The notes beneath the pieces were generated by a model. That model saw nothing but the letters and a program-made list of their open reading frames with translations. It made no database searches and had not been told where the DNA came from. Positions 13,351 through 20,617 of a stretch of DNA of 32,590 nt are shown piece by piece. Origin of the DNA: Sulfurovum sp. 16-42-52 (GTDB lineage: Bacteria; Campylobacterota; Campylobacteria; Campylobacterales; Sulfurovaceae); NCBI GenBank assembly GCA_002281755.1, contig NCHB01000035.1, positions 1-32,590 of the forward strand, read 5' to 3'. Position 1 is the first letter of the stretch. Each line of letters starts with the position of its first letter. The position numbers and the translations under genes were made by a program.

Positions 13351-14322
13351 TTAGCTTTTATATCCCTGTGGGTTATTCGATTGCCATCGCCAACTGTCTT
13401 TGCACATCTCATTGATGCCACGCTGTGCTTCCCAGCCGAGCACTGCTTTGGCGTAAGTGGGGTCAGCAAAACAGGTTGCGATGTCTCCTGCACGTCTTGG
13501 TGCGATGGAGTAAGGTACTTTTTTACCGCAGGCTGCTTCAAAAGCTTTGATGGTCATTATTTCAGTAAAAGTACTCATCTTATCGAGTGCTTTGACATGT
13601 CCGTCTGCAAGATCCATCACATGGATGTAGTCTCTTACACCAGTGCCATCAACAGTGTCATAGTCATCACCAAAGACACTTAAGCAGGCTCTTGTACCGA
13701 TAGCTGTTTGTGCAATAAAAGGCAAAAGGTTGTTGGGAATGCCGTTTGGATCTTCACCGATGGTGCCAGACTCATGCGCTCCGATGGGGTTAAAGTAGCG
13801 CAGTAAAACGATTTTCCACTCAGGATCAGAAACGTACAAATCACGTAACATCTCTTCTATGAAAAGTTTGGATCTTCCGTAAGGATTGGTAGCACTAAGA
13901 GGGAAGTCTTCTTTGATGGGTGTGCTGTGCGGATCGCCATACACTGTGGCAGAAGAGCTGAAGACGATGGACTTACATCCGTGTGCTGCCATAACTTGAC
14001 AGAGCACCAGTGTGCCGTAGATGTTGTTGTCGTAATATTCAAGGGGCTTTTCTACAGACTCACCCACTGCTTTAAGGCCTGCAAAATGAATGACAGCATC
14101 GATGGTGTAGCTTTCAAATACACGGTTCAAATCTTCTTTGTAGCGAATATCACCTTCTATGAGAGGGATGGTTTTGCCCACAATCTTTTCAACCCTTGCG
14201 ATGCTCTCTTTGGAGGCATTGCAAAAATTATCAAAAACCACAATATCATACCCCGCTTCAATCAGCAAGATACAGGTATGGGAGCCGATATATCCGGCGC
14301 CACCGGTCACTAAAATACGCAA
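13351..14322 (-). CDS. galE: UDP-glucose 4-epimerase
   Basis: Interconverts UDP-glucose and UDP-galactose (or the N-acetyl forms) for surface glycans. It is an extended SDR with GGAGYIGSH at the N-terminus, SSSATVYG and the catalytic YGRSK. Length 323 residues is normal. The start is TTG at 14322, supported by AAAAAGGA upstream; no ATG lies near the conserved N-terminus. It is 34 bp downstream of the YfaZ-like gene on the same strand. Confidence 0.95.
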   Translation of the reverse strand: MRILVTGGAGYIGSHTCILLIEAGYDIVVFDNFCNASKESIARVEKIVGKTIPLIEGDIRYKEDLNRVFESYTIDAVIHFAGLKAVGESVEKPLEYYDNNIYGTLVLCQVMAAHGCKSIVFSSSATVYGDPHSTPIKEDFPLSATNPYGRSKLFIEEMLRDLYVSDPEWKIVLLRYFNPIGAHESGTIGEDPNGIPNNLLPFIAQTAIGTRACLSVFGDDYDTVDGTGVRDYIHVMDLADGHVKALDKMSTFTEIMTIKAFEAACGKKVPYSIAPRRAGDIATCFADPTYAKAVLGWEAQRGINEMCKDSWRWQSNNPQGYKS

Positions 14323-14975: not shown

Positions 14976-15230
14976 TTAGTCCGCCGGGCGGTAGTTTTTC
15001 TCTTTTTCCAGCCGTTCTTGTTTCATTTTTTCTTGAAAGGCTTTTTTCTTCTCTTGCATCATCGCTGCATCCTGCAAGTCTTCTTCGTTGTCGTGGCGCA
15101 CCGCATCGATGAATTTGCTGTGGTCATCAAACTGTCCCGTTCTTACAGCCCAAATCAGAGCCAACAGTCCAATGGCTCCCAAAAGAGTGGAGATGCCTAT
15201 CATGAGTACAACAATGCTTTCACTCATCAT
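14976..15230 (-). CDS. ccoS: cbb3-type cytochrome oxidase assembly protein CcoS
   Basis: Small inner-membrane protein needed for cofactor insertion into cbb3 oxidase. It has one N-terminal transmembrane helix (residues about 5-28), followed by GQFDDHSKF, close to the family pattern GQFDD. The charged tail (DAAMMQEKKKAFQEKMKQ) is longer than in short CcoS proteins. Its start overlaps the ccoI stop in ATGATGA; the second ATG (15227) has better spacing from the AAGGAT site. Confidence 0.9.
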   Translation of the reverse strand: MMSESIVVLMIGISTLLGAIGLLALIWAVRTGQFDDHSKFIDAVRHDNEEDLQDAAMMQEKKKAFQEKMKQERLEKEKNYRPAD

Positions 15231-17575
15231 TTATCCTTGAATGTTAAATTTTTGATACGTAAAGAGTTTCCTACAACCACCAATGAACTCAGTGACATCG
15301 AAAATGCGGCTACCAGGGGATTGACAAAGCCCATGACAGCTAGAGGTATGGTGATGGTATTGTAAAGCAGGGAAAAGCCCAGATTTTCTTTCACGGCACC
15401 ATAGGTTCTGCGTGAGAGTCTGTATGCTTCTTCGATACTTTCAAATTTCTCATCTAAAAGTACGACATCACTGACGCTGATAGCCACATCTGCTCCATTT
15501 CCCATGGCTATGGCAATGTCTGAAGAGGCAAGTGCCAGTGCATCGTTGATGCCGTCTCCCGCCATGACGACTACCTCACCTGCTTGATGTAAGTCTTGTA
15601 TGATGCGCGCTTTGTCTTGAGGAAGCAGTTTGGCATACACCTGTTCAATTCCTACCGCTGAAGCGACTTTTTGGGCACTGCGTTCATGGTCACCTGTGAG
15701 CATGATGACTCTGATGCCTAGGTTTTTGATGTTTTGTATGGTTTTGGCTGCACCGCTTTTGATGGTATCACTGAGTTCAAAACGTGCCACAAGTTGGTTG
15801 TTGACAGTAAAAAAGAAGAGTGTGTTTTCCGACTCGCTGCCAACAAGGACATCTTGGGTCTGAAGCAGTTGCGCATTGCCGCCAAGGAGGTTTTTGCTTT
15901 GGTATCTTGCCTTGATGCCTTTGGCTTCAATGCTGCAAATCTCTTCAAGAATACGTGTCTCAAGTGTTTCGTAACTGTTTTCAAGGTAGCTTTTGATGCC
16001 TTTGGAGACAGGGTGGTTGGAAGTGTTTACCAACGCAATCGTACCTGTTTTATCTAAAGCCAGTACCGTGCTTTTTGCCATCGTTTCAAGAAAGGTGGCT
16101 TCTTTAAAGAGAATGCCTCTTTTGGCTGCCAAAGAGATGCCCACCAGCGTTGCCATAGGCGTTGCCAAAGAAAGTGCACAGGGACAGGCGATGACGATAA
16201 CTGAGATGCCTACGATGAGCGCCTGTTCAAAACTTCCCATCAAAAAGTACCAACCTGTAAATGTACACAATGCAATCAGCATAATAGTGCTGGAAAAACG
16301 TCCCGAAATGGCATTGGCGAGTTGCTCGATGCGGGGTTTTTTGGTAATGGACTCCTCCAGCAGGTTGACAATGGAGGTGAGCATGGAGCTTGAGACATCT
16401 TTGCTCGCTTCGTAATGCAGTACTGAATCCAGACAGATTGAACCGCTGAGAATCATATCTCCTTGTTTTTTGTAAACAGGTTCGTTCTCCCCTGTGAGCG
16501 AAGACTCATCAAATGAGCCTTGCCCCCATACGACTTCGCCGTCAATGACCACCTTCTCACCCGGCTTGAGTTCGATGATGTCCCCTACGATGACATTTTC
16601 TACACTCACCAGAGATTTGACACCCTCTTTGAGTGTGGTGACTTCAGTCGGCGTGCTTCCCATCAGCCCATCGAGGGTGTCAACCGCAGATTTTTTGCTT
16701 AAGACTTCCAGGTATTTACCCACCAGCACGAAAGTAATGATCATCGTCACTGAGTCAAAATAAACTTCTCCCTTTTGGCTTATCATCGCATAGATAGAGT
16801 AGATGTACGCTAGTGATGCACCTGTGGCAACCAGGGTATCCATGTTCACCATACGGTTTTTGTAGCCATAATACGCAGAACGGTAGAAAATCCACCCTGA
16901 GTAAAACAGCACAGGCGTAGCCAAGATAAACTCCGCCACATTGAGGATGTCTTTAAACGATTGCTCTATGCCGCTAAAGTACCCCGCATAATGCGCGATG
17001 GCAAGCCACATAATATTCATCGAACCAAAGACCGCCACCAAGATACGCGTATAATAGGTCTTGCGGGTAGAAATAGCCCGTTCTTCTTGCAGAGCAGGGT
17101 CATAAGGGTAGGCATTGTAGCCGATGGAGCGTATGGTGTGGATGAGCTCTGAGAGTTTGACCACTTCAGGATCCCAAACGATTTTGGCTTTATTGTTGGT
17201 GTAGTTGATGGTGGCTTCTATGACGCCAGCGGTTTTATGGAGTATTTTTTCATTGAGCCATACGCAGGCAGAACAGTGTATGCCTTCGATGATGAGGTGG
17301 ATTTTATTCAGTCCCTGCTCATCGGTTGTGATGTATTTGTTCTTAAAGCCTTCGAGGTCAAATTTTTCCAGACTACCCTCATCTTGTACGGCGGGCTGAA
17401 GTGTGGTGGAGCCCAGTTTGTCATAAAAGCTGTCTAGCCCTTGGTCACCCAGTAGATGATACACCCCTTGACAGCCCTTGCAACAGAAAAAAAGCTCTTT
17501 GGTGCCTTCTTTTTCTTTGATCATGACATCTTGCGAAAAAGTGAGGTTACAATGTGTACATGGTATCTCTGCCAA
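15227..17575 (-). CDS. ccoI: copper-translocating P1B-type ATPase CcoI
   Basis: Supplies copper for cbb3 oxidase assembly. With TTG 17575 as start (AAAAGGAAA upstream) it has 782 residues. It begins with a cysteine-rich CTHC...FFCCKGC zone, then an HMA domain with CSAC (about 101-104), about eight membrane segments, the TGE loop (361-363), CPC in the channel (464-466), the phosphorylation motif DKTGT (508-512), TGDHER and GDGINDA (from 673). Oddly, only eight residues separate DKTGT from the HP motif (SNHP, 521-522), while related ATPases have about 35. The TEGKP-like segment after DKTGT is gone, which looks like an in-frame deletion. All other motifs are intact. The next gene, ccoS, overlaps its stop. 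Confidence 0.93.
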   Translation of the reverse strand: MAEIPCTHCNLTFSQDVMIKEKEGTKELFFCCKGCQGVYHLLGDQGLDSFYDKLGSTTLQPAVQDEGSLEKFDLEGFKNKYITTDEQGLNKIHLIIEGIHCSACVWLNEKILHKTAGVIEATINYTNNKAKIVWDPEVVKLSELIHTIRSIGYNAYPYDPALQEERAISTRKTYYTRILVAVFGSMNIMWLAIAHYAGYFSGIEQSFKDILNVAEFILATPVLFYSGWIFYRSAYYGYKNRMVNMDTLVATGASLAYIYSIYAMISQKGEVYFDSVTMIITFVLVGKYLEVLSKKSAVDTLDGLMGSTPTEVTTLKEGVKSLVSVENVIVGDIIELKPGEKVVIDGEVVWGQGSFDESSLTGENEPVYKKQGDMILSGSICLDSVLHYEASKDVSSSMLTSIVNLLEESITKKPRIEQLANAISGRFSSTIMLIALCTFTGWYFLMGSFEQALIVGISVIVIACPCALSLATPMATLVGISLAAKRGILFKEATFLETMAKSTVLALDKTGTIALVNTSNHPVSKGIKSYLENSYETLETRILEEICSIEAKGIKARYQSKNLLGGNAQLLQTQDVLVGSESENTLFFFTVNNQLVARFELSDTIKSGAAKTIQNIKNLGIRVIMLTGDHERSAQKVASAVGIEQVYAKLLPQDKARIIQDLHQAGEVVVMAGDGINDALALASSDIAIAMGNGADVAISVSDVVLLDEKFESIEEAYRLSRRTYGAVKENLGFSLLYNTITIPLAVMGFVNPLVAAFSMSLSSLVVVGNSLRIKNLTFKDK

Positions 17576-17644
17576 GGGTTTCCTTTTTATTAAGGTTAAA
17601 AGATAGTGCTGTGTGATTTTATCTAAATCTGTGTAAAATCCACT

Positions 17645-18034
17645 ATGGAAAATACACTCATCTTGCCGCTCATCCTCCTTTTTGCAGAACTTTTTGAAGC
17701 TTCTATGCAGCGTTCCCAAACGCTTTTAGGGGTTTTGGAAAAACTCTATAGTTATTATGCAAAAAATATCTTTTTGTTTTTCCTCATACAGCCGAGTTTT
17801 TATGTCGTTATCGGCATCATCATGTTTACGGGTGTACTCAATTTTAGTATTGTTTTCATCTTGGCACTCAAAATCTTTGATATGTTTTACAAGATGGAAC
17901 TCATCAAAAAAGTCTACTTGGAACGCCAGGTCTCCCAGGAGTTGGCGGAGATCTTAGCGTGGCGTATACCTCCTTATTTTTTTCTCATGGGTGCAGGGCT
18001 TTATCCTTTTGTGTTGTATTATGCATTGGGTTAA
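17645..18034 (+). CDS. small multi-pass membrane protein of unknown function
   Basis: I do not recognise this 129-residue protein. It has three or four hydrophobic segments (about 3-15, 43-75 and 108-127) and a charged amphipathic stretch (KIFDMFYKMELIKKVYLERQ) between them. It is transcribed divergently from ccoI, with 69 bp between the starts; TAAAAT on each strand could serve as -10 boxes. No strong ribosome binding site precedes ATG 17645. It ends 107 bp before rho, which has its own promoter. It may be a cytoplasmic-membrane protein linked to oxidase assembly, but nothing in the sequence proves it. Confidence 0.7.
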   Translation: MENTLILPLILLFAELFEASMQRSQTLLGVLEKLYSYYAKNIFLFFLIQPSFYVVIGIIMFTGVLNFSIVFILALKIFDMFYKMELIKKVYLERQVSQELAEILAWRIPPYFFLMGAGLYPFVLYYALG

Positions 18035-20376: not shown

Positions 20377-20407
20377 AACTTTATCTACCAATATTAAGGA
20401 TGTAAAA

Positions 20408-20617
20408 ATGAAAAATGTCTTAGAAAGTTTTGCTATATTTTTGGTTGGACTTTTGACTTTGGGTATTGTCTATTTGATTATTCAGTACAATATGATTGAT
20501 GAGAGCAATATTGTTACTGTGGTGGATGAAAGTGCGTATGCAGCACCGGCTACGACTGGCGCAGAAGGCGGAGATGATATCGATGCAGAGATCGATGCGG
20601 AGATCGATGCCGAATAA
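20408..20617 (+). CDS. small single-pass membrane protein with acidic repeat tail
   Basis: A 69-residue protein that I cannot assign. Residues about 5-27 (ESFAIFLVGLLTLGIVYLII) form one transmembrane helix. A short linker leads to an Ala/Gly stretch and an acidic tail made of three IDAE units. It has a candidate promoter and a good ribosome binding site, which argue that it is a real gene. It converges on trpS, with 14 bp between the two stops. The tail is probably on the periplasmic or cytoplasmic face depending on orientation, which cannot be told. Possible roles, such as metal binding or protein contact, are guesses. Confidence 0.65.
   Translation: MKNVLESFAIFLVGLLTLGIVYLIIQYNMIDESNIVTVVDESAYAAPATTGAEGGDDIDAEIDAEIDAE
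20579..20614 (+). repeat. 12-bp tandem repeat encoding IDAE x3
   Basis: Three 12-bp units (ATCGATGCNGAR) at the very end of the small gene, differing only at third codon positions, followed directly by TAA. The silent differences suggest the repeat is kept for its protein sequence, not freshly duplicated. Confidence 0.8.

Follow-up and report, generated by a model that had tools for sequence, protein, structure and literature searches.

Does the copper ATPase gene ccoI of Sulfurovum sp. 16-42-52 lack a piece of its P/N-domain junction, or was that piece lost on the way to the assembly? The question arises from a 32,590-nt stretch of DNA (contig NCHB01000035.1 of assembly GCA_002281755.1; hereafter the window), for which a first-pass annotation had claimed that a segment is missing, in frame, right after the DKTGT motif of CcoI. 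The segment is indeed absent. The minus-strand frame of ccoI is open, its translation includes ...LALDKTGTIALVNTSNHPVSKGIK..., and the stretch at the junction reads DKTGTIALVNTSNHP; in DKTGTI/ALVNTSNHP, with the slash marking the break, eight residues lead from DKTGT to HP. The same annotation had placed the loss between positions 15993 and 16065, and the break at 16036/16037 lies inside that interval. The features concerned are:

15227..17578, minus strand: ccoI, CcoI/FixI-type copper P1B-ATPase, assigned by homology and by Pfam and TIGR profiles
14976..15230, minus strand: ccoS, cbb3 oxidase assembly protein, directly downstream of and adjoining ccoI (TIGR00847 above cut-off; PF03597)
16036..16037, minus strand: point at which 66 bp (22 codons) present in relatives are absent, from alignments with relatives

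The protein measures 783 aa counted from the onset of similarity, and the longest ORF extends to 17719. All four of its domains passed the Pfam cut-offs (N-terminal PF12156, HMA, E1-E2_ATPase and HAD hydrolase), and it scores 469.7 bits against TIGR01511 (copper-type P1B-ATPase; cut-off 397) and 490.5 bits against TIGR01525 (cut-off 346.25). CPC, DKTGT, HP and GDGIND (as GDGINDA) are all present, so that the further claim of otherwise intact P1B motifs holds for CPC and GDGINDA as well as for the HMA and PF12156 domains. The expected company of cbb3 genes is confirmed, with ccoS adjacent and ccoN, above its profile cut-off, on another contig of the same genome. What defines CcoI/FixI proteins at the junction, DKTGT[LI]T followed by the hinge and the first N-domain strand with 30 residues to HP, is absent here; membership in the family rests on homology across the remaining protein, and the present sequence reads as a damaged or misassembled copy. 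A search of the genome for a second CcoI found none, its other matches being a CopA-like paralogue (~36% identity) and a distant P-type ATPase, and a search for a second copy of the DNA around the junction returned none. Divergently oriented from ccoI, a 129-residue ORF on the plus strand (17645-18034 of the window) encodes several hydrophobic stretches and matches no Pfam family.

We surveyed 70 loci of relatives (L002-L071), of which 68 reach the motif (29 and 39 in two listings), L068 and L070 ending before it. The spacer from DKTGT to HP is 30 residues long in every one of the 68 readable loci and 8 in the window; 22 residues, or 66 bp, are therefore missing in frame. The first-pass estimate of about 27 residues or 80 bp was thus right about the loss and too high about its size. 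Since several genomes occur in both collections, distinct sequences were also counted: among 63 full-length rows, compared by 300 aa around the motif, 52 of 52 distinct relatives have the 30-residue spacer. Two residues past DKTGT the same 52 all carry T and the window carries A, and the lost stretch covers positions fixed as T and G in all 52. In a 65-row alignment the 22-residue gap is confined to the window and its own copy (L001), and it is the window row's only gap of at least 4 residues against columns filled in >90% of the other rows. The 22 residues are present in the nearest relative, a Sulfurovum metagenome-assembled genome (locus L031, genome G060; 95.4% protein and 90.8% DNA identity). 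A short linker as a trait common to close relatives, the outcome that was to have overturned the first-pass reading in an alignment of orthologues, is ruled out by these counts (0/68 loci; 52/52 distinct sequences with 30). The short spacer is thus unique to one assembly, in a comparison that holds a single genome of this species, and judged against these sequences it is not ordinary variation.

Structural modelling, which had also been proposed, was carried out with AlphaFold2 on the P+N domain fragments of the nearest relative and of the window CcoI. The alignments for the models held 24 relatives plus the window (38 of the 68 loci were removed by a fragment filter, and repeats among the other 30 were dropped). 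Mean pLDDT falls from 89.5 in the relative to 75.0 in the window, where residues 35-46, at the junction, stay below 50. Mapped onto the relative's fragment, the missing residues are 38-59; they take in the T after DKTGTI, the hinge, strand 43-49 and five residues of the eight-residue helix 55-62, and the window model shows neither this strand nor this helix. The suggestion of a rearranged N-domain finds no support in the models, as the strand and most of the helix drop out and no new element appears in their place. In fold searches of the PDB, copper ATPases rank first for either model, with a weaker fit to 4bbj for the short one (E 3.1e-22 and rmsd 7.9, against E 3.1e-28 and rmsd 5.4 for the relative). 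Without the hinge, the strand and most of the helix, the product of a real short gene would probably be dead. An impaired enzyme, as also considered at first, would be likely only if the deletion itself is real.

Branch counts with L006 as outgroup (window versus L031, 782 codons, 25 sites ambiguous) gave 12 nonsynonymous and 58 synonymous changes on the window branch and 27 and 92 on that of the relative. Restricted to the part of the gene after the break, the window branch has 3 and 14 and that of L031 has 6 and 18. Pseudogene decay of ccoI was rejected, as nonsynonymous changes are not in excess. To judge from these substitutions the remaining gene is under purifying selection with no sign of decay, so that it would have been functional until very lately, or would be still.

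To place the gap in the context of its genome, we compared 1,025,484 bases of that genome, among them the window, with 962,312 bases of G060; 390,426 bases aligned, at a mean identity of 89.4%. Losses of at least 12 bp number 27 here (17 inside ORFs of both genomes) and 14 in G060 (7 inside). With the threshold raised to 40 bp, and again inside ORFs of both genomes, there are 7 losses here versus 2 in G060. The seven, assigned to genes from alignments read by eye, with the families of four genes taken from profile searches, are two in ftsA (143 and 44 bp) and one each in bioA (120 bp), ccoI (66 bp), a small glycine-rich protein (56 bp), gdhA (50 bp) and galE (42 bp). Those outside ccoI lie as follows:

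13351..14322 of the window, minus strand: galE, 42 bp (14 codons; the nearest relative has NLGTGKGYSVLEVL) absent at about 13551, seen by comparison with the syntenic G060 contig
L198 1098-1556 and neighbours (G000:C46 about 41177 and 41521): the two ftsA breaks, both out of frame
L198 3717 (G000:C46 about 43717): bioA, 120 bp absent mid-gene, in frame
L200 11640 (G000:C36 about 51640): gdhA, 50 bp absent near the start, out of frame
L202 1852 (G000:C34): small glycine-rich, lipoprotein-like ORF, 56 bp absent relative to the nearest relative, out of frame

Six of the seven losses fall in conserved genes, compared with neither of the two in G060 (a repetitive low-complexity protein and a spurious-looking ORF). 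The difference of 7 versus 2, obtained with a mechanical ORF filter, has p = 0.18; that of 6 versus 0, for which the conserved genes were picked after the list was seen, has p = 0.03. Three of the seven losses are in frame, all of them in conserved genes, and three in frame with three out among six is about the expectation for losses blind to the reading frame. The losses also cluster, with three within 2.6 kb of one contig and two within 2.5 kb in the window. The latter two are the ccoI break and the in-frame galE loss 2.5 kb from it, through which the window copy is without an NLGTG motif that all 9 of the relatives' galE loci examined carry. The out-of-frame loss near the start of gdhA means that the annotated N-terminus would be wrong, and searches of the genome turned up no other, complete copy of bioA or gdhA. 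The argument makes no use of differences of at least 40 bp that lie outside ORFs of both genomes, of which there are 4 here and 2 in the relative. At L099 17264, compared with L176 10541, ~200 bp are absent here that in the relative contain nearly the whole of a 64-residue ORF (MKYDEPTLEK...) with one likely membrane helix. The window is also ~30 bp shorter than the relative at 20385-20393, just upstream of, and outside, a small ORF at 20408-20617.

The losses in ftsA weigh most. The sole copy found lies in three pieces, and neither of the losses between them, 143 bp and 44 bp long, is divisible by three. Among 25 other genomes, 23 gave one unbroken ftsA match, one a match split over two contigs and one none. 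FtsA is essential in most bacteria studied; a literature search on its essentiality in Helicobacter returned nothing directly on point. As the loss of FtsA should be fatal, local deletion errors are the best explanation. In a genome with scores of 99.09% for completeness and 0.89% for contamination, errors account far more easily than real events for two frame-breaking ftsA deletions, and we regard this as the strongest single point. We therefore read the 66-bp gap in ccoI, with a probability of about 0.8 on this comparison of sequences, as a local deletion error of this draft assembly. Of the options first put forward, a loss by the assembly of about 80 bp fits best, as 66 bp, since other conserved genes of this assembly also lack pieces of 42-143 bp. 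All these losses would have a common technical origin, such as wrong joins or a wrong consensus in weakly covered or strain-mixed stretches. The cell's own ccoI would then be whole and encode an ordinary full-length CcoI, which would move Cu(I) to the periplasm with ATP for the building of the cbb3 oxidase.

Several observations run against an assembly error: the breaks carry no repeats, short gaps are not clearly in excess, the ccoI frame is kept, and 7 versus 2 is not significant by itself. Repeat collapse is the commonest cause of assembly loss. It is not the cause here, because the breaks share few bases with their flanks (0 at ccoI, 0-4 over the seven breaks of at least 40 bp inside ORFs), and a loss at a direct repeat is likewise ruled out by the lack of any repeat at the break. 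A generally error-rich assembly was also rejected: short frameshifting gaps of 1-11 bp, counted where both genomes have an ORF, come to 46 here versus 36 in the relative, no clear excess, and identities in 500-bp bins near the breaks (0.872-0.982) do not stand out from those of the bins as a whole (mean 0.900, s.d. 0.042). Our search of the literature on such assembly losses returned nothing directly on point.

The main competitor, which we consider unlikely, is a real, recent and inactivating deletion, after which CcoI would keep its membrane part and the phosphorylated Asp and could not seat ATP properly. Copper would then miss the cbb3 oxidase, and micro-oxic respiration would fail or use another oxidase. 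A break that offers the assembler no repeat to collapse, a frame that is kept, a genome in which no other CcoI was found, and models that show neither the hinge nor the first strand of the N-domain and have lost the greater part of its first helix all agree with such an event. It leaves the other losses unexplained, above all the two frame-breaking ones in ftsA, and it must accommodate the retention of ccoN and ccoS and selection on ccoI that is not relaxed, so that a real loss would be very recent. In Rhodobacter lacking CcoI, the cbb3 oxidase is described in PMC8475189 as inactive and unstable and as not rescued by copper; a strain with a real inactivating deletion would therefore show a clear phenotype. 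Far less probable still is a real deletion that leaves the enzyme working, its P-N hinge shortened and its N-domain reduced to five strands. The kept frame, the other P1B motifs, purifying selection on the rest of the gene and copper ATPases as top PDB matches of the short model are compatible with it. Against it stand a spacer seen in none of the 68 relatives' loci, the loss of T and G positions invariant in all 52 distinct relatives, a junction modelled at a confidence below 50 and the weakened match to 4bbj. According to PMC5089723, moreover, the N-domains of P1B-ATPases are sheets of six strands with a highly conserved central sheet, which speaks against the working short enzyme as well. 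If all of these losses were real, a Sulfurovum-like lineage would be caught in a burst of 40-140 bp deletions, with ftsA just broken, core motifs cut from CcoI, GalE, BioA and glutamate dehydrogenase, division proceeding without a normal FtsA, and CcoI running, or failing, on a one-strand P-N hinge; we hold such a burst to be very improbable.

If the gap is an assembly error, a genome at 99.09% completeness and 0.89% contamination can still miss pieces of core genes, and wherever a single draft shows a 'missing motif', further core genes of that assembly should be checked before functional claims are made. Should it be real, the gap would put to the test how large a part of its P-N hinge a copper ATPase can do without. 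As biology the case is of low interest; it has some use as a quality warning.

Local deletion errors of draft and metagenome assemblies likewise affect one assembly only, hit several unrelated conserved genes in and out of frame, and cluster; the breaks here differ from them in being bounded by 0-4 shared bases, not by repeats. Among solved copper P1B-ATPases, LpCopA (3rfu, 4bbj), ATP7B (7si3) and the P and N domains of AfCopA (3a1c) are the best sequence and fold matches. In the models, the hinge and first N-domain strand are present in the intact relative and absent from the window protein. With CcoI/FixI (CopA2-type) proteins, the window CcoI shares the domain order, the CPC, DKTGT, HP and GDGIND motifs, the neighbouring ccoS and a ccoN in the genome, and it differs from them in the 22 residues right after DKTGTI, which are kept in all 68 readable loci of its relatives.
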